IMG/VR virus record: IMGVR_UViG_3300031973_000778
Location: 1-33,841 of that record
Origin: a virus
Length of the DNA stretch: 33,841 bases
Strand: one strand, 5' to 3'
Below, in pieces: positions 424 through 33,841 of this stretch. The notes under the pieces were generated by a model. It searched no databases and was not told where the DNA came from. It worked only from the letters and a program-made list of their open reading frames with translations. The position numbers and the translations under genes are program-made. How positions within the stretch are numbered: position 1 is the first letter of the stretch; every line of letters starts with the position of its first letter.

Positions 424-855
424 TTGTCTTGGCGTTCTATCTTGAAGGAGTCTAAAACCACTTCTAGAGAGATAGTGAATTTAAATTGGGATGAAGAACA
501 ATTACCGGAGAAGGACAAAGATACCTGCATTAAGGAATTAAGAAGGGTGGTTGAGAAAGCAAAAAATCATCCTGTTATTAGAGAAACAGAAACCAAATTT
601 CCTAACCCTACGATGAAAGACATGCCGGAAGCAGTGGCATGTAGGGCTTTAGACTTTATTAAGCGATTAGGAAAAGATGATACTGCTTTTTCTGATATAA
701 TAGATGGATATTATATTGTGTGTGTATATGATATAACCGGTTTCGGTATTACTATTTTCCCAGATAGACCGCTTCATGGTGGACCAACTGTGCTTGGAAT
801 ATATGCCCATAATAAAGACGAAAAATACACACTTGAAGAATTAGATTGGAGGTAA
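424..855 (+). CDS. Tagged paralog array member 1 (short type)
   Basis: 143 residues from a TTG start; GAAGGTGA lies just upstream, and no ATG gives the tag. It opens MSWRSILKE, then VNLNWDEEQLPEKDKDTC, then a helix and the EAVAC motif. The rest is short and β-rich. It ends ELDWR, where the codons for W-R-stop contain the GGAGG used by the next gene. The short type (members 1, 5 and 8) shares the order helix, [PE]E-x-VAC, then about 75 residues. The function is unknown. I infer an internal-head or cargo protein because the tag resembles the scaffold C-terminus. Confidence 0.88.
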   Translation: MSWRSILKESKTTSREIVNLNWDEEQLPEKDKDTCIKELRRVVEKAKNHPVIRETETKFPNPTMKDMPEAVACRALDFIKRLGKDDTAFSDIIDGYYIVCVYDITGFGITIFPDRPLHGGPTVLGIYAHNKDEKYTLEELDWR

Positions 856-856
856 C

Positions 857-1570
857 ATGTGGTGGAATATCATTAAAGACACTAAACAGTCCTCTAGACA
901 ATTAATCAATTTAGATTGGGATGAAGAAGCGATTTCCATAGAAGATGAAGACTGTTTAAAGTGGCTTGTGGAATATCATAATATTATTGTTAAGTATGAC
1001 GATTTAGTTACGCATCGTATTCCTCAAGGGCCAATAACAAATAAAATTCCTAATGAAGTGGCTTGTTTAGTTAAGCAGAAATTTCAACAAGATATTCCTA
1101 GTCCAAGTATAGATTTCAATGAAGGCGGCATTAACGTTGGCATTTCTTTTGAATTAAGACCAAGTAAAGTAGGAACAGGTTGGTTTGATATATTTATTTT
1201 TATTGGGAAAGAAGACACACCTGAATATTTTATGAATTCGGGCCTTACTAGAACATGGGCTAGATGTCCTCCTGAAATGGAGATAGAGAGAATTAATTCA
1301 AGAAAGGGCACTGATGAACACTTTATTCAAAAAAATTCATTTGTTAGTAGGTTTAATCGTGGGAAAAATACATGGACAAGAAGGATGTGCCAATTCTTAA
1401 AAGAACTTATTAACCATACTAATAATCCCAATTTATCGGACTATTGTATTGATGCACTTGCTGAACAGTGGTTTTATTGGGCCGGTGAACTCAATGATGA
1501 AGATAAGCCGTTAGATAAAAAAATTCTATCAGTTATAAAAGAAACGATAGAAACACAATATTGGAATTGA
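857..1570 (+). CDS. Tagged paralog array member 2 (longest)
   Basis: 237 residues from ATG with GGAGG at 848-852. It opens MWWNIIKDTKQSSRQ, followed by INLDWDEE, the acidic segment EDEDC and the NEVAC motif. It then differs from all the other members, with a long C-terminal part rich in Trp and Phe (TWARCPPEM, NTWTRRMCQF, EQWFYWAGEL). The C-terminal domain looks like a separate globular fold that I cannot name. It may be an older member, or one that gained a domain. The N-terminal half fixes it in the same family as its seven neighbours. Function unknown; packaged cargo is an inference. Confidence 0.88.
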   Translation: MWWNIIKDTKQSSRQLINLDWDEEAISIEDEDCLKWLVEYHNIIVKYDDLVTHRIPQGPITNKIPNEVACLVKQKFQQDIPSPSIDFNEGGINVGISFELRPSKVGTGWFDIFIFIGKEDTPEYFMNSGLTRTWARCPPEMEIERINSRKGTDEHFIQKNSFVSRFNRGKNTWTRRMCQFLKELINHTNNPNLSDYCIDALAEQWFYWAGELNDEDKPLDKKILSVIKETIETQYWN

Positions 1571-1574
1571 TAAT

Positions 1575-2201
1575 ATGTGGTGGGATATTTTGAAAAATAT
1601 TAGGCAGACTTCTAAAGAAGTAATTAACCTAGATTGGGATGAAGAACAGATACCCGAAGAAGAAGATGAAAAATGTAAAGATAGATTGCAGAAATTATTT
1701 GATTTTCTAAAAACTAACAAGGATTTGCCTTTTGAATATCAAGCGGTTAATTTAGACAAAGGTGAAGCCTTCGGTCAACGCTATACTCATGGCCGAAGAC
1801 AAGACCCTTACATGTCACTTTACATTACGGCGTATCATCGAGGAATGGACTCTTTTACTGAAGAAGCAGCATGTGTTTTTTTAGCAGAATTTGAGAAGGT
1901 ATTAGACCATTCTATCGCTCATTTAGACACTCCCGAATCTATAGACTATAAACCACAACTTCCTAATGCAGGTGGCAGAGTAAACGTAGGTGAATTTGAT
2001 ATTTTATCAGGTAGTAATCGAGGAACAATGAGTAAACTAAAGGGCAGTCAGCACATGCTTAATGCAAAAATATTAGATGCAGGAGCATCAGTTGGGAGTA
2101 ATACTAGATTTTCTATAAGTATGTATTGGATGCCTTATCCTCCTGCTATTGAAGAAGACGGTATTAGAGCCTTTTTAGAAAAAGTTAGGGGTATGTTATG
2201 A
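1575..2201 (+). CDS. Tagged paralog array member 3 (long type)
   Basis: 208 residues from ATG. It opens MWWDILKNIRQTSKE, then INLDWDEEQIPEEEDEKC, a helix and the EEAAC motif, followed by the long-type C-terminal domain also seen in members 4 and 6. It ends VRGML, and the codons for these residues (GTTAGGGGTATGTTATGA) serve as the ribosome-binding site and overlapping start for the next gene (ATG at 2198 or 2201). Its own start has only a weak upstream site. The domain has no family that I can name. Confidence 0.88.
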   Translation: MWWDILKNIRQTSKEVINLDWDEEQIPEEEDEKCKDRLQKLFDFLKTNKDLPFEYQAVNLDKGEAFGQRYTHGRRQDPYMSLYITAYHRGMDSFTEEAACVFLAEFEKVLDHSIAHLDTPESIDYKPQLPNAGGRVNVGEFDILSGSNRGTMSKLKGSQHMLNAKILDAGASVGSNTRFSISMYWMPYPPAIEEDGIRAFLEKVRGML

Positions 2202-2770
2202 TGTGGTGGAATATCATCAAAGCCCAACAACGGTCTAAGGAAATGATAAACTTAGATTGGGAAGAAGAAGCAGTCCCAATGCAAGAGGAAGAAGATTGTA
2301 AAAAGAAACTTCTTTCAGTTTATGAGTATATTCGTTCCTCTAATGATATTAAGTTTAATGAAACTCAAGATAATGGACAACGTTCTTTTACTAGATTCGT
2401 TAATAATTTTGAGTTGGGACTTCATCCTAAGTTTCATATATTGATTCATCTTCAGTTTCTTGATAAGTTTTCCAATGAAGAAGTTTGCACATTTAATGAA
2501 TATATAAAACAGGTCTGTCAAGCAATTATTGATGAAAAGGAACTAAAAGAACGTATTCCTGTGCGTGACGGCGAAGGGTCTTACTCTTATGCGAGAGTTT
2601 ATCATGCCCCTAATAAACTTGGTTTTAATGGTGATGTTTCGTTTATTGCGAAAGAAGATAATTATTTTAGTTTAGAGTTTAGCATAGCATATTTTCCTTT
2701 TAGAAAAGAATATGACACGATTTCTGATGAAATAGTTTCTCTAGTTACAAAAATTAAGGGGATGTTATGA
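2198..2770 (+). CDS. Tagged paralog array member 4 (long type)
   Basis: 190 residues from ATG at 2198, or 189 from the adjacent ATG at 2201; ATGATG overlaps the previous stop, so translation is probably coupled. It opens MMWWNIIKAQQRSKE, then INLDWEEEAVPMQEEEDC and the NEEVC motif. The C-terminal domain shares its layout with members 3 and 6 and ends IKGML. The paired pattern of conserved N-terminus and divergent body is the same as in the neighbours. I see no catalytic motif, signal peptide or membrane segment. Confidence 0.88.
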   Translation: MMWWNIIKAQQRSKEMINLDWEEEAVPMQEEEDCKKKLLSVYEYIRSSNDIKFNETQDNGQRSFTRFVNNFELGLHPKFHILIHLQFLDKFSNEEVCTFNEYIKQVCQAIIDEKELKERIPVRDGEGSYSYARVYHAPNKLGFNGDVSFIAKEDNYFSLEFSIAYFPFRKEYDTISDEIVSLVTKIKGML

Positions 2771-3237
2771 TGTGGTTTGATATCCTTAAAGAATCTAAGC
2801 AAACTTCTAGACAGTTGATAAACTTAGATTGGGATGAAGAAATTCAACCGGAAGCAGAAGAAGACAGTTGTGTTAAGAGATTAAGACAACTGTATGAAAA
2901 GGTAACACAACATAAATATTATTTTTCTGATTTTCACAGTTGGAAAATTAAAGATTTGCCGGAAAGTGTAGCGTGTAAATCTTTAGAGATGATTGCAGAT
3001 GCCGAATTTACAACCCCATACTCATCTAGGGATGAAAGATTAAGAATAATAACTGATTCAATAGTTACTGATTTTGAAGGATATACAATACAAATGGTTT
3101 GGAATGAAAAAAGTTTTCTCTTTGTTATTTTTAAGAGAGGTGCAGGCCACAAAACTATTTATTTCGGAACAACTGCTCCCAAATACGGTAGTCAAGAAAG
3201 AGTAGCCATTGACCCTAAAGAATTAGATTGGAGGTGA
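2767..3237 (+). CDS. Tagged paralog array member 5 (short type)
   Basis: 156 residues, from an ATGATG that overlaps the previous stop. It opens MMWFDILKESKQTSRQ, then INLDWDEEIQPEAEEDSC and the ESVAC motif. Like member 1 it is short and ends KELDWR. The W-R codons give GGAGGTGAT (3229-3237 region), which pairs well with the archaeal-type 16S rRNA 3' end and drives the gene at 3242. It most resembles members 1 and 8. Function unknown. Confidence 0.88.
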   Translation: MMWFDILKESKQTSRQLINLDWDEEIQPEAEEDSCVKRLRQLYEKVTQHKYYFSDFHSWKIKDLPESVACKSLEMIADAEFTTPYSSRDERLRIITDSIVTDFEGYTIQMVWNEKSFLFVIFKRGAGHKTIYFGTTAPKYGSQERVAIDPKELDWR

Positions 3238-3241
3238 TAAA

Positions 3242-3904
3242 ATGTGGTGGTGGGACATAATCAAAGAAACTAGACAAGCCTCTAGAGAAATGATTAGTCT
3301 TGATTGGGATGAAGAGATGGTTCCCGATTCAGAACAAGAGGAAGAAGATTGTAAAAAGAAATTAAGGGCAGTTCATCAATATCTTTCTTCTCTTAATGGT
3401 ATTGAGTTTACTTTCGGAAATGAAGTTAAAGCCTTTGATTTTACAGATGAATATGACAGTGGTGGGTGGTTAGATAAAAGAATGCCTTTCAAATCTAGTA
3501 AAGATAGATTTACTAGAAGTGCCGTTACTGTTGAAATTGATGTTGGAGATATAGATAAATTATCAGAAGACGAAGCCTGTGCATTCAATGAGAAGGTGAA
3601 GGAAACGCTAGGTGATGCTATATCTAGAAAAGACACAAGAGGCTCACTTAATTTAAGGCCAAACATGGAAATAAAGTATAATACTAAAACTAGATATGAT
3701 GATGATGGGTTTATAGCAAGAGTTAGTTTAGAGGATTGGAATAATGACATATTTGTATTCTTTAAGTTTCTTTGCAGGCCTTTACGATATACAGAATCAA
3801 AAGAATTTACTCCCGGCGTAGGCAAGATAAATTCACGGCTTATTCATGAATCAATTTCTAGCAGTTGTGTTAACATAGCCGAAAAAATTAGGGGGATGTT
3901 ATGA
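3242..3904 (+). CDS. Tagged paralog array member 6 (long type)
   Basis: 220 residues from ATG with a strong upstream GGAGGTGAT. It opens MWWWDIIKETRQASRE (three tryptophans, where most members have one or two), then ISLDWDEEMVPDSEQEEEDC and the DEAC motif. The remaining part is acidic and β-rich and ends IRGML, as in members 3 and 4. A long open frame on the opposite strand (3376-3825) is a shadow caused by codon bias. Function unknown; it belongs to the same inferred cargo family. Confidence 0.88.
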   Translation: MWWWDIIKETRQASREMISLDWDEEMVPDSEQEEEDCKKKLRAVHQYLSSLNGIEFTFGNEVKAFDFTDEYDSGGWLDKRMPFKSSKDRFTRSAVTVEIDVGDIDKLSEDEACAFNEKVKETLGDAISRKDTRGSLNLRPNMEIKYNTKTRYDDDGFIARVSLEDWNNDIFVFFKFLCRPLRYTESKEFTPGVGKINSRLIHESISSSCVNIAEKIRGML

Positions 3905-4518
3905 TGTGGTGGGACATAATTAAAAACCAACAACAGGTTTCTAGGGGAATGATTAATCTTGATTGGGAAGAAGATATTGAAGAGGAAGAAGAGGATTGTA
4001 TTAAACGATGGAATGCTCAATGTAAGAAGAATGAATCCTTTAGTCATATTGTTAAAGACTATCTAATAGAAGATGATACCGGAGGATGGGAAACCGATGT
4101 TAAAGAAAATAAAATTACTTTCTATAAACAGGGTGATAGAAAAAAACCCACTTGGACATATCCCGGTTCAAATGCTACATATAGAATAAGTATTGCTTGG
4201 GAATATTTAGATAAAAATTCTTCCGAAGAACGTGTTTGTCGGATGTTAGAATCATTCAATAAGATACCTTTGGGTCAAGGTGCAGTTAATGTTGTTCATG
4301 ATGATGATATAATTGGTATGGTTGATAAAACAAATTCTAGATTTCTTCTCGGTAGGACTATGGTATTAATGGAAAGAAATGTTCCGTTGAAATTTTGTAG
4401 CATAGTCATTACCACAGAAAAGAAAGACAAAGATGGATATACAGATGAAAATGATGAACAAAATAAAAAACTCGAAGAGTTAGCAGAAAGAGCGAGGGCG
4501 GTTTTCAATGTGGTTTGA
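3901..4518 (+). CDS. Tagged paralog array member 7 (long type, divergent end)
   Basis: 205 residues, from an ATGATG that overlaps the previous stop. It opens MMWWDIIKNQQQVSRG, then INLDWEEDIEEEEEDC and an EERVC motif. The C-terminus lacks the GML ending and instead ends RARAVFNVV. Its last codons overlap the start of member 8 by 11 bases. The acidic run after the tag is the longest in the array. No enzyme motif is visible. Family membership is certain from the N-terminal half; function is unknown. Confidence 0.88.
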   Translation: MMWWDIIKNQQQVSRGMINLDWEEDIEEEEEDCIKRWNAQCKKNESFSHIVKDYLIEDDTGGWETDVKENKITFYKQGDRKKPTWTYPGSNATYRISIAWEYLDKNSSEERVCRMLESFNKIPLGQGAVNVVHDDDIIGMVDKTNSRFLLGRTMVLMERNVPLKFCSIVITTEKKDKDGYTDENDEQNKKLEELAERARAVFNVV

Positions 4519-4969
4519 TATTCTAAAAAACGTAAATCAGTCTTCAAGACAAATGATTAATTTGGATTGGGGTGATGAAACTGTCCCCGAAGAAGAGGAA
4601 TCTGATTGTCTTAAGAAATTAAAAGAATATTATGACAAAGCAAAGAATCATCCTCATGCAAGAGCAGATGGTTATTTCTCCTTTTTCTCTATTCCTGAAG
4701 AAGTCGCTTGTGCTATATTAGAAGATTTAGAATCAGCAAAAAAAGGAAAAACCAAAATTGGTTATAAAACAATAAAAAATATTAATGGTATGAATTATGA
4801 CTATAAAGTAGCCTATGGTGTTTACCAACATCCACCTCGGCCTAAATATCAAGTATTCAGAGTTGTTTGTTATAATTGGGGAAAGATGGATTATGATGAC
4901 ATGAAGCGAATGAAGTTTGCTACACAATCTCAAGATTTAGATGCTGATATAGACTTCCGCAAAACATGA
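4508..4969 (+). CDS. Tagged paralog array member 8 (short type)
   Basis: 153 residues from an ATG inside the end of member 7. It opens MWFDILKNVNQSSRQ, then INLDWGDETVPEEEESDC, with AKNHPHA and EEVAC close to member 1 (AKNHPVI and EAVAC). The body is Tyr- and Lys-rich (YKVAYGVYQHPPRPKYQ). It closes the array: the genes after it keep the short tag but lose the LDWDEE block and the paired cysteines. Function unknown. Confidence 0.88.
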   Translation: MWFDILKNVNQSSRQMINLDWGDETVPEEEESDCLKKLKEYYDKAKNHPHARADGYFSFFSIPEEVACAILEDLESAKKGKTKIGYKTIKNINGMNYDYKVAYGVYQHPPRPKYQVFRVVCYNWGKMDYDDMKRMKFATQSQDLDADIDFRKT

Positions 4970-17435: not shown

Positions 17436-18797
17436 ATGTCGAAGGCTGAAAGATTAAAAGAAATTTCTAGCAAATATGAAGAGTTGTCTAGAATTACTGA
17501 GGAAGAAGAATCTCTTAAGGATGAGATTGAAGATGCTCAAGATAGAGATTTAGTTACTACTTCTTTTGATACCTACGTTATGTCGGAAAATGAGCAGATA
17601 ACTAAACTATCAAATGATTTAGGAGTTAATGCTTCTCAAGCAAGAAAGTATATTGTTTCATTCCCCGATGAATATATCATACAAGAACAAACTATTCCTG
17701 ATTTAGTCACTAAGATGAGAAAGGCTAGAAGAGTTCTTAAGGGCGAAAATAGAGAAAGGATGACAAGAGTAATTGACACAATGATTGATGCTTACTCAGA
17801 CCATTTGCAGAAATGTATAGATTCTATTTCTTGGTTATCTCCTTACGAAGTGCCTCTAAAGAAAATGAGATTTAATGAAAAGGATTTACAGAAACTTTAC
17901 AAAATGAAAGATGTGGAATCTAGAAGAGAAGTTGTTGATGCTTTGTGTAAGTATTGGGAGGCTGAACTAGAGCAAACAGGAATGGTTTACTGTGATGATT
18001 ATTCTGAACTATACAAGACTATGAGACAAAGTAAAAAAGAATTTAGAAATGCTATTTCTAAGGTTTCTAATCAATCTTTAGTTAAGTCGAAAAAGGATAG
18101 ACAGAATGATTTTATTGTAAAGATGGTATGTGAAAACCCCGGTATTAGTGCGAAGGGAATACATGATAGAATGCCTGCTGATTTATTTAGAACAACCAAT
18201 GCTAACTCTATATCTAAATCAGCAAAGTCACTAGATATATTATCTGTTAAGGGTAATTACTACAAGGCTCCTACTATGTTAAAGAAAAATGTATGGGCTT
18301 ACACTGCTGCATTTATTGACTCTGATGGTTATATTACTCTTGACCGCAATATGAATCCTAGAGTTGGTTTGGTTGCTACCGGAGAAAGAGGCAGGGCATT
18401 CATGGAAGAAATGCATAAATCAATTGGTTTTGGCAGATTACATTTAGACCAAAAATCTCCACAAGATACTAGACCCGTAAATCGCTTAAATTTTTATTCA
18501 CAAAAAGATGTTATGGATTTACTAACTAAGTGTCTTCCTCATTTTAGATTAAAGAAAGGAAATGCCGAACTACTTATAGAGTTGATACGAATGAAAAAAT
18601 CATATAAGAAGGCTGATTGGTATAAGCAAAGGTGTGACGAAATTTTCAAATTAATGAAATGGGAGAATCATAAAGACCATGTTGGGTTTGATTTCGGTAA
18701 AGAAAATATAAATTTAGATGACATTCAAAAATACAAAGATAATTGTAAAATTTCAGTAATGGATGAGTTAGAAGGAATAGGAGGGATATTGGCTTGA
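17436..18797 (+). CDS. LAGLIDADG endonuclease-domain protein with N-terminal helical part
   Basis: 453 residues from ATG with AGGTGG upstream. Residues 1-215 are helical and charged with a possible HTH (LSNDLGVNASQARKYI). Residues about 222-280 look like a winged helix (FIVKMVCENPGISAKGIH). From about 290 there is a single LAGLIDADG motif, TAAFIDSDGYI, with the acidic residue kept, followed by the usual strand/helix pattern (GLVATGERGRAFMEEMHK, NRLNFYSQKDVMDLL). One motif implies a homodimer or a degenerate second half. It is probably a free-standing homing endonuclease adjacent to terL. The long N-terminus is unusual and might instead be a DNA-binding structural gene that captured the nuclease. 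Confidence 0.8.
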   Translation: MSKAERLKEISSKYEELSRITEEEESLKDEIEDAQDRDLVTTSFDTYVMSENEQITKLSNDLGVNASQARKYIVSFPDEYIIQEQTIPDLVTKMRKARRVLKGENRERMTRVIDTMIDAYSDHLQKCIDSISWLSPYEVPLKKMRFNEKDLQKLYKMKDVESRREVVDALCKYWEAELEQTGMVYCDDYSELYKTMRQSKKEFRNAISKVSNQSLVKSKKDRQNDFIVKMVCENPGISAKGIHDRMPADLFRTTNANSISKSAKSLDILSVKGNYYKAPTMLKKNVWAYTAAFIDSDGYITLDRNMNPRVGLVATGERGRAFMEEMHKSIGFGRLHLDQKSPQDTRPVNRLNFYSQKDVMDLLTKCLPHFRLKKGNAELLIELIRMKKSYKKADWYKQRCDEIFKLMKWENHKDHVGFDFGKENINLDDIQKYKDNCKISVMDELEGIGGILA

Positions 18798-25434: not shown

Positions 25435-25787
25435 CATGGGATTATTATAATGATGGAAAAGAGATTATCATAAAAAAGGAAAAGACTGAGGCTAAAAGCA
25501 TACTTGATTCGTTAGACCCGAAGGCTAGAAAGAGACTAAAAAAGACCATTCAAGCGGCTTCTCCTACTGAATTTTTCGGTCAAGATTTTACTAAATTAGG
25601 TGAATTAATTGATACTCTTAAAGAATTGGATTTAACTAAATCTGATAAGAAACTTAGTAAGAAAATGAAATCAATGGATGACAGGAACCTTGATATTGTT
25701 GCTACTGCTACGAAGTTGCGTAAAGAATACGAATTACTGTATAGACAACTCGATGATTTAATCTATGGCAGGACAAAAAAGAAGTGA
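25431..25787 (+). CDS. Small basic protein with variant tag MTWDYY
   Basis: 118 residues from ATG overlapping the previous stop (ATGA), with AAGGAGGG at 25418-25425. It opens MTWDYYNDGKEIIIKK, matching the first eleven residues of the protein at 22968 apart from two changes. Beyond that it is helical and basic (DPKARKRLKKTIQAAS, KLRKEYELLYRQLDDL) and ends GRTKKK. No known domain. The shared beginning suggests a second tag class used for the portal-proximal genes. Confidence 0.82.
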   Translation: MTWDYYNDGKEIIIKKEKTEAKSILDSLDPKARKRLKKTIQAASPTEFFGQDFTKLGELIDTLKELDLTKSDKKLSKKMKSMDDRNLDIVATATKLRKEYELLYRQLDDLIYGRTKKK

Positions 25788-25791
25788 TATT

Positions 25792-26043
25792 ATGACAGAA
25801 GAAAACACAATTAATCAAGAATTATTGGAGATAATTAAAGCATTAGCCTCAAAGGTTGAAGACTTAGAAAAGACAATTTATGCTAAAGATAGCATACTTA
25901 TGAAAGCGGGTTTTGTAGTAACTAATAGTCCAACTCCTGCTATGGATAATTCAATTGGTTCTCCAATGGGAATGCCAAAAGATATTTCAACTATGGATTG
26001 GTCCGAGATTCATAAAATGGTCGAAAAGGCGGGTGGAAATTAA
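25792..26043 (+). CDS. Small protein with scaffold-like C-terminal capsid-binding motif
   Basis: 83 residues from ATG 25792, five bases after the previous stop; a longer upstream frame would overlap the previous gene. A short coiled coil (ELLEIIKALASKVEDLEK) and a Pro/Met/Gly-rich linker (NSPTPAMDNSIGSPMGM) lead to the C-terminal motif ISTMDWSEIHKMVEKAGGN. The scaffold at 28833-30029 ends VAQMDWNDIHKMVGGI. This is a strong match at the same, terminal position, so I infer that both dock to the same partner, probably the capsid shell. It could be an accessory scaffold or an assembly chaperone. Confidence 0.82.
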   Translation: MTEENTINQELLEIIKALASKVEDLEKTIYAKDSILMKAGFVVTNSPTPAMDNSIGSPMGMPKDISTMDWSEIHKMVEKAGGN

Positions 26044-28832: not shown

Positions 28833-30029
28833 ATGGCATCTGCTATTATGGCTAATCATAATGATGATTTCAGAATACTCAAAAGTGACGATTTAATGAT
28901 TGGAGGATATGCAAGCATCGAAATCGTTGATAAGCAAAATGATTTAATTACACTCAAAGCATTAGAAGATGCAGTCGAAAAATACATGGAGAATCCCAAA
29001 TTTAGGAATGTAATGACAAACCATTCAAATGTTCAAGTCGGAGAGGTAATTAAATCGTATCGAGATAAGAACGGAAAACTATGGAAAACTGAAGTTGATG
29101 ATGTAGGATTTTTTGTAGTGATTAAATTAAGGGATGATATAGAAAAAGCCAAAGAAATAAATCGAGGCATAAGAAAAGGTTCATTGAGGTCATTTAGCAT
29201 TGGGGGGCAAGCAATACATAAAGTAAAGAAAAATCACCCGGAGTTAGGAGATTACAATGAAATAAGCAAACTAGAATTGCATGAAGTAACAATATGTGAA
29301 AAAGGAATAAACCCGGAAGCGAAATTTGATATTTTAAAGCAAGATAAGGAGGCAAAAAAAATGAGTAAACTAGAAAAAGCATTAGCAGAATTGGACACTC
29401 TAATGGAGGAAGTCAATATGCTAAGAAAAGAAGAAGAAGAAGAAGAGAAAGGTATGGGTGAATACATGGATGAAATGGAAAGAGCCGATACTATGGAAAT
29501 GAAAGATGACGAAGAGGAAATGATGGATATGTCCGACGATAGAGAAAGAGAAGCAAAGGCTTTACTTTCAACTCTAGATGGCGCAGGCGTTGAAATCGGC
29601 GAACCTGCGGATAGAGTTGTAATTGACAACGGAAACCCAAAGGCTTCTGATTTGCCGGTTGTTAAGGCATTTAACAACGAAGAATTAGAAACACTTGATT
29701 TGTCAGTAGGAAACATTGAGAAGGCTTACGAAGCATTCCGTCAAGAACAACTAGAAAAGTTGGCTTACGATAATCTTCAAAAGCAGTTTGAAGCCCGATT
29801 TAAGGCTGAAACAACAACAAGAACAGATGCAATCGCTAAAGCAAATTACGATGCAAAGTCAGAAATTGCTTCCCTAAAGGAAGAATTTACACAACTAAGA
29901 AAGTCTCTAACTGCTGAGAAAGAGACTATTCTAAAGGCTCAAGAAGAGTCTGAAATTAAACTCCCTTCATTGGATGAAGTTGCACAAATGGATTGGAACG
30001 ACATTCACAAGATGGTAGGAGGAATTTAA
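28833..30029 (+). CDS. Capsid maturation protease fused to scaffold
   Basis: 398 residues from ATG with GGTGAGG upstream. Residues 1-170 fit the phage prohead serine protease fold: GGYASIEIVDKQNDLIT, then H64 in MTNHSNVQVGEVI, S122 in GSLRSFSIGG, and LHEVTICEKGINPEAKF (H150/E151). H64 and S122 are the likely catalytic pair. Residues 177-398 are an acidic, coiled-coil scaffold that ends MDWNDIHKMVGGI. The protease digests scaffold and trims capsid proteins during maturation. The protein probably assembles inside the prohead, with the C-terminus on the shell. A strong internal start at 29361 probably yields the scaffold alone. The W-x-x-I-x-K end matches the N-terminal tags elsewhere in the window. 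Confidence 0.9.
   Translation: MASAIMANHNDDFRILKSDDLMIGGYASIEIVDKQNDLITLKALEDAVEKYMENPKFRNVMTNHSNVQVGEVIKSYRDKNGKLWKTEVDDVGFFVVIKLRDDIEKAKEINRGIRKGSLRSFSIGGQAIHKVKKNHPELGDYNEISKLELHEVTICEKGINPEAKFDILKQDKEAKKMSKLEKALAELDTLMEEVNMLRKEEEEEEKGMGEYMDEMERADTMEMKDDEEEMMDMSDDREREAKALLSTLDGAGVEIGEPADRVVIDNGNPKASDLPVVKAFNNEELETLDLSVGNIEKAYEAFRQEQLEKLAYDNLQKQFEARFKAETTTRTDAIAKANYDAKSEIASLKEEFTQLRKSLTAEKETILKAQEESEIKLPSLDEVAQMDWNDIHKMVGGI
29346..29352 (+). promoter_or_regulatory. Internal ribosome-binding site for the scaffold
   Basis: AAGGAGG, eight bases before ATG 29361, inside the protease/scaffold reading frame and exactly at the domain border. It is one of the best ribosome-binding sites in the window, which argues for a second in-frame product. 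Confidence 0.75.
29361..30029 (+). CDS. Nested scaffold protein (internal in-frame start)
   Basis: 222 residues from M177 of the protease/scaffold gene, beginning MSKLEKALAELDTLMEEV. A perfect AAGGAGG lies eight bases upstream. The product lacks the protease domain and contains an acidic Met/Glu-rich stretch, a helical part (AYEAFRQEQLEKLAYDNLQK, EIASLKEEFTQLRKSL) and the terminal MDWNDIHKMVGGI. The same arrangement is well known for phage lambda C/Nu3, where most scaffold is made from an internal start. It would supply excess scaffold over protease. Supported by the site and the domain border; expression is not shown. Confidence 0.72.
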   Translation: MSKLEKALAELDTLMEEVNMLRKEEEEEEKGMGEYMDEMERADTMEMKDDEEEMMDMSDDREREAKALLSTLDGAGVEIGEPADRVVIDNGNPKASDLPVVKAFNNEELETLDLSVGNIEKAYEAFRQEQLEKLAYDNLQKQFEARFKAETTTRTDAIAKANYDAKSEIASLKEEFTQLRKSLTAEKETILKAQEESEIKLPSLDEVAQMDWNDIHKMVGGI

Positions 30030-32458: not shown

Positions 32459-32854
32459 ATGCCTGCATTGAATCAAGATACTAGATTAGTTATGACTATA
32501 CTTTTCGTTGGTGCATTAAGTGGTGCTAACGTTATGGTTTATGCACAGATAGGTTTAGGATTCCCATATGGTCCTTTAGCACACTCCGTATTATTTGGTT
32601 TAGGAACGATAGGTGCTATTATGGTAATGAAAGCCCTATTTGATTTAGCACTAAATGATAAAATAGAGATGTGGCTACTTGATAGAAAGATTGCGGCCTA
32701 TTGGGAAAGGAAAGCAAGAGATGAGCAACAGTTGAGAAAGATGCAGGAAAGCGCAAAGCAATATGGTGGAATGACTTTCCCGCAGTATTCTAACATTGAG
32801 ACAACTGATGATAACACTGTTGGAAGTGAATTTTTAGCCGCTACTCTTCAGTGA
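32459..32854 (+). CDS. Small membrane protein with two transmembrane helices
   Basis: 131 residues from ATG with GAGGTGA five bases upstream. Two hydrophobic segments, about residues 9-32 (MTILFVGALSGANVMVYAQI) and 36-62 (VLFGLGTIGAIMVMKALFDL), are followed by a charged helix (AAYWERKARDEQQLRKMQES) and a polar tail. The two-helix hairpin with a charged tail resembles holins in outline, but such hairpins are common and I see no lysis enzyme. It precedes another small membrane protein and a GTPase, which suggests a membrane-linked module. Confidence 0.72.
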   Translation: MPALNQDTRLVMTILFVGALSGANVMVYAQIGLGFPYGPLAHSVLFGLGTIGAIMVMKALFDLALNDKIEMWLLDRKIAAYWERKARDEQQLRKMQESAKQYGGMTFPQYSNIETTDDNTVGSEFLAATLQ

Positions 32855-32863
32855 GGCGGTTAA

Positions 32864-33079
32864 ATGTTTTCTGATTTTCTAGGGTTTTCTGATTCTGATT
32901 ATGCATATAATCAGCAAAGAGCGCATTCAGCAGATATTTTATTTCTAAAAATGAGAGCATGGTTTTGGGGCACTTGTGCTGCCATATCCTCTTTCTTTAT
33001 TGGAAACATTATGGGTGTCTTCGATATTAATATTCTAGGTTGGATATTAGATACCTTTTGGCACAGTTGGGAGGTATAG
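32864..33079 (+). CDS. Small membrane protein preceding the GTPase
   Basis: 71 residues from ATG with GAGGCGG upstream. A polar N-terminus (FSDFLGFSDSDYAYNQQRAH) is followed by a hydrophobic region, about residues 33-66 (WFWGTCAAISSFFIGNIMGV and DINILGWILDTFW), one long or two short membrane helices. It ends SWEV, and its last codons provide GGGAGG for the GTPase TTG start. Tight spacing with the flanking genes suggests shared function. Family unknown. Confidence 0.7.
   Translation: MFSDFLGFSDSDYAYNQQRAHSADILFLKMRAWFWGTCAAISSFFIGNIMGVFDINILGWILDTFWHSWEV
33069..33074 (+). promoter_or_regulatory. Ribosome-binding site that fixes the GTPase start
   Basis: GGGAGG at 33069-33074 lies seven bases before TTG 33082. 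The in-frame ATG at 33040 is deep inside the previous gene with no site, so TTG 33082 (or ATG 33088) is the likely start. Confidence 0.65.
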
Positions 33080-33081
33080 TC

Positions 33082-33750
33082 TTGTCAATGATGACAGGCT
33101 TTGCCATTTTGGTAGGAGAAGCATTCATTAGTTTTTATAGAAAGGTTCATGCAATTAATTTTGGTGTGTATGGTGCAACAATGGTTGGTAAAACAACGTT
33201 AAGTAATCAGTTAAGAACAAGGGGAGAAGTGCCTCAAATAAATGAAAGAACAGTAGGATTACATAGGGCCTCTAGAAAAACAGTTAAAATAGACGGAGAC
33301 TCACATACTGTTAGAAGTGCAGACGTTGGCGGAGAAGCAATCTATTGGAAAGAATGGGTTAAAGACATGCAAAAAAGAAGAGTAAAGTATGTGATTTTTA
33401 TGATAGACCATAGGCACTTAGATAATTCTTCTAACTTAGACCATCAAGTAGCATGGAAGTTTTTAGTTGATACAATATGTGCAAATACTTGGCCCACTAA
33501 CAGAAAAAAAAGAGATTCAGATTATCCTATTGCAGTGGGCATATGGGCAAATAAATATGACATATGGGGAGAAAAATATCCACTAAAAGAAGGACAAACA
33601 ATAGACAAACATGAAATTTTTGAACCGTTTAAGTATGGAATGAGACAATTAAACGATAAAGGAATACCTTGTTTTAAGTATATAGTTTCAGCAAAATCAG
33701 AACCCGAAATGGTTTATAGAGGCGTAATGACGATGATAAAGGATTATTGA
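33082..33750 (+). CDS. Arf/Sar-like small GTPase with hydrophobic N-terminus
   Basis: 222 residues from TTG 33082. All five G motifs are visible: P-loop GATMVGKTT (31-39), switch I ERTVG with T57, switch II DVGGEAIYW (D81), NKYD (157-160, in WANKYD) and SAK (203-205). The DVGG plus following Trp-rich helix is typical of the Arf/Sar/SRβ group. The position of the catalytic Gln of Arf (DVGGQ) holds Glu85, which suggests altered or slow hydrolysis. Residues 1-25 (MTGFAILVGEAFISFY) are hydrophobic and could anchor the protein to membrane, as Arf N-terminal helices do. Two membrane-protein genes precede it. I know of no established role for such a GTPase in a tailed virus. Confidence 0.85.
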   Translation: MSMMTGFAILVGEAFISFYRKVHAINFGVYGATMVGKTTLSNQLRTRGEVPQINERTVGLHRASRKTVKIDGDSHTVRSADVGGEAIYWKEWVKDMQKRRVKYVIFMIDHRHLDNSSNLDHQVAWKFLVDTICANTWPTNRKKRDSDYPIAVGIWANKYDIWGEKYPLKEGQTIDKHEIFEPFKYGMRQLNDKGIPCFKYIVSAKSEPEMVYRGVMTMIKDY

Positions 33751-33755
33751 TTACT

Positions 33756-33841
33756 ATGTGGGAAGAAGTATTAAAGGCAGCAAAGAGATTAAATTATGAT
33801 TTTCTTAAAGAGATTGTTTTAACACAAGGTAAAGAAATGAA
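33756..33841 (+). CDS. Tagged protein, 3' end outside the window
   Basis: Starts at ATG 33756, five bases after the GTPase stop. The visible part begins MWEEVLKAAKRLNYDFLKEI, an N-terminal tag in the short form (M-W-x-x-V-L-K) like that at 19272, and runs off the window. It shows that tagged genes continue downstream, beyond the capsid region. The rest of the protein cannot be seen. Confidence 0.75.
   Translation, partial: MWEEVLKAAKRLNYDFLKEIVLTQGKEM

Follow-up and report, generated by a model that had tools for sequence, protein, structure and literature searches.

Small GTPases of the Ras/Arf type are familiar chiefly as regulators of membrane traffic in eukaryotes. Here, we ask what such a protein might do in a tailed virus of prokaryotes. 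The gene in question lies close to the end of a 33,841-nucleotide stretch of viral DNA (IMG/VR record IMGVR_UViG_3300031973_000778), which was analysed over its full length and is referred to below as the window. An original prediction, made from the letters alone, had described an Arf-like GTPase, tethered to the membrane, in which Glu replaces the catalytic Gln of Arf and which is perhaps slow or always GTP-bound.

A small GTPase gene with intact G motifs

The gene, its motifs and its immediate neighbours are listed below. Coordinates are those of the window.

32459–32854, plus strand: TM-A, 131 residues, two predicted transmembrane helices and a long charged tail; recognised by position and look in both virus clades
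32864–33079, plus strand: TM-B, 71 residues, one predicted transmembrane helix; homologous across clades (hhalign)
33070–33075, plus strand: ribosome-binding site GGAGGT, 6 nucleotides 5' of the TTG start, read directly
33082–33750, plus strand: small Ras/Arf-type GTPase, 222 residues, TTG start, TGA stop, frame open
33085–33147, plus strand: N-terminal hydrophobic helix, residues 2–22, running straight into the first strand (AlphaFold2 and hydropathy)
33172–33198, plus strand: G1 P-loop GATMVGKTT, residues 31–39; G36, K37, T38 and T39 invariant in 73 sequences
33247–33258, plus strand: switch I/G2 RTVG, residues 56–59; R56 and T57 invariant in both clades
33322–33336, plus strand: G3 DVGGE (ADVGGE is residues 80–85); Glu85 codon at 33334–33336
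33550–33561, plus strand: G4 NKYD, guanine specificity, residues 157–160; N157, K158 and D160 invariant
33688–33696, plus strand: G5 SAK, residues 203–205
33756–33841, plus strand: start of an open reading frame with a W-x-x-[VL]-L-K tag (MWEEVLKAAKRL...), cut by the window end

The GTPase gene starts directly 3' of the TM-B stop codon. Note that an automatic list of open reading frames places the start further upstream, at 33040. In relatives, the position equivalent to 33082 is occupied by ATG (148 cases) or TTG (17 cases). Hence, 33082 is the correct start. As originally predicted, the five G motifs are all present in the open frame, Glu85 occupies the position of the Arf catalytic Gln, and the hydrophobic N-terminus is modelled as a helix.

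The GTPase is a core gene of two virus clades

With the close family as query, two scans of viral sequences returned 187 and 256 relatives. A pattern scan on TMVGKTT surfaced a second clade and, when this was used as the query, relatives were found on at least 385 IMG/VR stretches. GTPases of the window clade and the second clade share 28–37% identity. We selected 73 representatives, under 90% identity, for comparison. Down to 28% identity, G31, G36, K37, T38, T39, T57, D81, G84, N157, K158 and D160 are invariant; R56, W89, W92 and the R65-K66 pair are likewise kept without exception. In switch I, VG is confined to the window clade and, at G5, the second clade has MAT[KR] in place of SAK. Loss of the G motifs from all relatives, which would have spoken against the original prediction, was not seen in the 73 sequences.

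The median dN/dS of the gene among close relatives is 0.068. Together, the invariant motifs, the fold match described below and this ratio rule out a chance P-loop. The gene is found in 14 of 14 near-complete genomes, at one copy each, with two in a 184.7-kb record. We conclude that the GTPase is a strongly conserved core gene, with one copy per genome equivalent. The record with two copies (IMGVR_UViG_3300021958_000021, L044/G006; 184,733 bp) carries two GTPase and two capsid genes, approximately 92 kb apart, as if a genome had been doubled or two related genomes joined in one contig.

No relatives of the GTPase were found in PHROGs or the phage record collection, including Druskaviridae, or in the plasmids searched. 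Among BFVD viral proteins, named small-GTPase matches come from giant eukaryotic viruses. The sole match in a cellular genome, using a window-clade query, is on a contig assigned to a Maricaulis metagenome-assembled genome (L083, NZMJ01000024.1). Since it is 87% identical to the viral GTPase, this contig is most likely a misbinned magrovirus. With so many viral stretches, and all near-complete genomes, encoding the protein, acquisition of a host gene by a single virus is ruled out.

Viruses with the GTPase are best read as magroviruses

All 14 near-complete relatives encode an SU10-type capsid protein, PolB and Cpn60, and a few encode TFB. The capsid protein is similar to its counterparts in haloarchaeal Druskaviridae. 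PolB is divided between two open reading frames in the window clade, as reported for Aoguangviridae (PMC10768690). In the second clade, PolB is unsplit and genomes are mostly 100–109 kb; Apasviridae are alike in both respects (PMC12999244). Magrovirales are defined by genomes of 90–110 kb, a Druskaviridae-related capsid protein, PolB and Cpn60, with split PolB in Aoguangviridae (PMC10768690, PMC12999244). The near-complete relatives have these genes and sizes; the window itself is a 33.8-kb fragment. Hence, given the capsid protein, PolB, Cpn60 and the split PolB of the window clade, we consider that these viruses are best read as magroviruses. PCNA, looked for as a clade marker, was not found. 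The literature names Poseidoniales, abundant marine archaea thought to be infected by magroviruses, as the host. No mention of a GTPase was found in the magrovirus literature searched, which leaves out Philosof 2017 and Prabhu 2025, where an earlier mention is possible.

Elsewhere in the window, an open reading frame behind TerL (17436–18797) has a LAGLIDADG-like stretch, AAFIDSDGYI, in its C-terminal half and an N-terminal region of unknown kind. This is possibly a homing-endonuclease relic.

The predicted fold is Arf-like, with other Ras-superfamily folds close behind

The AlphaFold2 model (pLDDT 80, pTM 0.78) has a G-domain with helix 2–22 in front. In a structural search, the top 24 rows were all Arf/Arl or Asgard ArfR proteins (Z 16.5–15.7), with about 160 residues aligned, mostly at 2.5–2.9 Å, and 16–22% identity. 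Rab30 (Z 15.6), Rag (15.5) and G-alpha (15.3) were within about 1 Z of Arf/Arl. Foldseek placed Rab33 first by E-value, and Arf1 had the top TM-score among the matches listed.

Sequence matches to cellular GTPases were too weak (E about 0.01) to place the family reliably among them. Against Pfam, the window protein matched MMR_HSR1 (E 3.5e-4, just under the cut-off), Roc, and SRPRB (E 0.1; 12.4 bits against a cut-off of 25), and had no match to Arf (PF00025). Among the 73 members, matches were to MMR_HSR1 (40/73), Roc (38/73), Ras (26/73), SRPRB (24/73) and Arf (12/73). The Arf matches are those at E ≤0.1, the best being 1.6e-3, and none reached the curated cut-off; the best SRPRB match, at 3.5e-4, was also under its curated cut-off. 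The NCBIfam model TIGR00231 (small_GTP) matched 54 of the 73 members, with a best E of 2.6e-6, and a profile search matched the SR-beta structure 5ck3 at E 0.025.

The broad Ras/Arf superfamily is recognised by GxxxxGK[ST], a switch Thr, DxxG and NKxD in a single G-domain; all are present here, with fold matches at Z of about 15–16.5. We conclude that, as judged by its motifs and modelled structure, the gene product is a small GTPase of the Ras/Arf superfamily in this broad sense. The prediction of an Arf-like GTPase thus stands in part. An Arf-like fold is a fair description of the model, whose top structural matches are Arf/Arl. Membership of the Arf family is unsupported by the Pfam cut-off, the motif or the helix type, and Rab, Rag and G-alpha are tied in the structural search.

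Likenesses to Arf/Arl proteins, including Asgard ArfR, are the fold, a DxGG-type G3 in nearly all members, and a helix before the G-domain. However, Arf proteins have WDxGGQ, while the window protein has ADVGGE, with no Trp before the G3 Asp; Gln is present in part of the second clade only. Similarly, the Arf helix is amphipathic and myristoylated at Gly2 (PMC12554972), whereas the window protein has Ser2 and an evenly hydrophobic helix with a low moment. Unlike Ras and Rab, which have a C-terminal prenylation Cys and DTAGQ, the window protein ends ...MIKDY, and G3 is DxGG in most members and DxAGE in a few. The giant-virus Rab/Ras proteins are also virus-encoded small GTPases. However, they are mostly 10–18% identical to the magrovirus protein and come from viruses of eukaryotic hosts. 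The magrovirus GTPase is encoded by a tailed virus of prokaryotes, as a core late gene, and its anchor is N-terminal, not C-terminal. Among prokaryotes, MglA and Rup are small Ras-superfamily GTPases of bacteria and archaea (PMC4316618). MglA is without the G3 Asp, and is coupled to MglB/Roadblock (PMC4316618), whereas D81 is invariant in the viral family. The 14 viral genomes yielded no homologue of Roadblock (PF03259) or MglB, nor any GAP of the Roadblock type.

Gln, Glu and Asp exchange at the catalytic position

Conservation of Glu85 depends on the clade considered. In the window clade, the residue is the same in all 81 close sequences. Members of the second clade have Gln, Glu or Asp at this position, and never a hydrophobic residue. 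Of 196 unique sequences, almost all have G3 in the form D-x-[GA]-G-[QED]. On a tree of the 73 representatives, there were at least seven changes among Gln, Glu and Asp, with the window clade all Glu. Note that the catalytic column was kept in the alignment for this tree, which introduces a small bias in the count. In Ras, the equivalent Q61E substitution increases intrinsic GTPase activity (PMC2987813, PMC10515638).

These observations run against the original prediction that Glu might leave the switch slow or GTP-bound at all times, and rule out loss of catalysis through Glu85 as the default. Repeated exchange among Gln, Glu and Asp fits better with kept polar chemistry, namely an oxygen able to position water, than with lost catalysis. 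Thus, by comparison of natural sequences and by analogy with Ras, the series argues for a working switch, rather than one that is dead or locked.

The N-terminal helix is a likely membrane anchor

The N-terminal helix is short. Its best 17-residue segment has a mean hydropathy of 1.85 in the window clade and 1.21, which is borderline, in the second clade. The helical moment is low in both. Hydropathy and low moment together favour a short membrane-embedded helix over an amphipathic helix of the Arf type, less firmly so in the second clade. We conclude that the helix is likely to be the membrane anchor of the GTPase. The membrane tether originally proposed is therefore probable for the window protein, and the evidence is weaker for the second clade.

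The GTPase sits in a conserved cassette

In both clades, the gene order is TM-A (two transmembrane helices and coiled coil), TM-B (one transmembrane helix), GTPase, and a protein with CxxC and CPxH motifs. A TM-A/TM-B-like order precedes the GTPase in 135 of 157 and 70 of 85 loci. TM-B is 71–89 residues long, with a single transmembrane helix, and is homologous across clades (hhalign probability 94.6, E 7e-8). The same is true of the CxxC/CPxH protein (probability 96.5, E 1e-9); control comparisons of wrong pairs gave probabilities under 1. Homology of TM-A across clades was undetected by hhalign (probability 0.7), so that agreement is in position and look only.

The CxxC...TYCPxH protein was found 3' of the GTPase in 210 loci and, in 27 window-clade loci, it is at +2 instead of +1. 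In the window, the tagged open reading frame at 33756–33841 sits between the GTPase and the usual place of this protein. The CxxC/CPxH protein was modelled with pLDDT 82 and pTM 0.59, and had no convincing structural match. More generally, our searches gave no recognisable family or fold for the cassette neighbours. At one locus (L008), the protein at +2 weakly matched a virion structural PHROG (E 0.005).

The genes that flank the cassette differ. They are genes for the head followed by genes for the tail in the window clade, and TerS and TerL in the second. Since the block is kept while its surroundings change, the cassette members probably work together.

A terminal peptide is absent from the cassette proteins

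A W-x-x-[ILVM]-[ILVMH]-K peptide begins 19 of the window's 46 open reading frames, the 19 lying within 424–21162; shuffling gives an expectation of 0.2. Two proteins, encoded at 25765–26043 and 28833–30029, carry this motif at the C-terminus: one is 92 residues long (MDWSEIHKMV), and the other is the protease/scaffold fusion (MDWNDIHKMV). Similar terminal motifs were found in both virus clades, in 242 of 2074 and 97 of 1057 unique open reading frames, compared with 11 and 5 in shuffles. From these patterns, a role in targeting to the capsid interior or scaffold is plausible. Separately, 424–4969 is a tandem run of about eight open reading frames with a common N-terminus, M(W)WDI[IL]K...INLDWDEE, and otherwise different sequences. 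These look like a family of tagged, diverged proteins, encoded side by side.

In the window, the tag is found neither on the GTPase nor on its membrane partners. Since many other open reading frames carry it, the cassette proteins are probably not capsid cargo.

Discussion

We propose, with about even confidence, that the GTPase is a membrane-anchored, hydrolysis-competent switch, encoded by a core late magrovirus gene, that acts inside a small viral membrane complex. The N-terminal helix would hold the G-domain next to TM-A and TM-B, on the cytoplasmic side of the host membrane. In the GTP state, the switch regions may bind a cassette partner, and hydrolysis, with Gln, Glu or Asp holding the attacking water, would release it. 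A GEF or GAP could be supplied by the host. Most likely, the switch would set the time or place of a late event at the host membrane, such as docking of assembling particles or membrane opening for release. What points to a late step is the position of the gene among structural and morphogenesis genes. More tentatively, the anchored switch, the two transmembrane proteins and the CxxC/CPxH partner could form a virus-run GTPase membrane module, with no known phage counterpart, that controls when virions dock at the archaeal membrane or are released there.

The same neighbours could instead be virion components. In that case, the GTPase and its membrane partners might reside in the neck, the tail or a patch of internal membrane, and act during entry, as the tail meets the membrane of the host. 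Transmembrane proteins encoded among structural genes may belong to the virion, the window-clade cassette does sit between head and tail genes, and the +2 protein at L008 has its structural PHROG match. However, the second-clade cassette adjoins terminase genes, so that linkage to tail genes is not kept, and the cassette proteins are without the tag suspected of marking capsid cargo. Both points moderately favour assembly or release over entry. Furthermore, a GTPase brought in by the virion would depend on the host cytosol for its GTP once entry had taken place. We consider action at entry unlikely.

A GTPase acting outside the virion altogether, as a mimic of a host regulator or in blocking superinfection, seems more improbable still. 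In SR-beta, an N-terminal hydrophobic helix directly precedes an Arf-type G-domain. The viral GTPase is predicted to have the same layout and could, as an SR-beta-like receptor, recruit the host signal-recognition machinery; the SRPRB and 5ck3 matches agree with this. However, no match passed a curated cut-off, and the neighbours of the viral gene are small transmembrane proteins and the CxxC/CPxH protein, with no recognisable SR-alpha. Accessory exclusion genes tend to be patchy, so universal presence with fixed late neighbours better fits a structural or assembly role, and PADLOC gave no defence match. Least probable of all is a protein that Glu85 has turned from a cycling switch into a slow or permanently GTP-bound scaffold. 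Invariance of Glu85 in the window clade would suit such a protein, but the exchanges seen across the family, and the behaviour of Ras Q61E, would not.

The preferred reading, a hydrolysis-competent switch at the host membrane, bears on more than this locus. The natural Gln/Glu/Asp series at the catalytic position is useful for understanding the chemistry of GTP hydrolysis. A small GTPase appears to be a universal late gene in a globally common group of marine archaeal viruses, where it is accompanied by a constant set of small membrane proteins. The GTPase and these neighbours suggest that the virus itself drives a step at the host membrane by means of GTP. This opens a testable question: how archaeal tailed viruses handle the host membrane in assembly or release.
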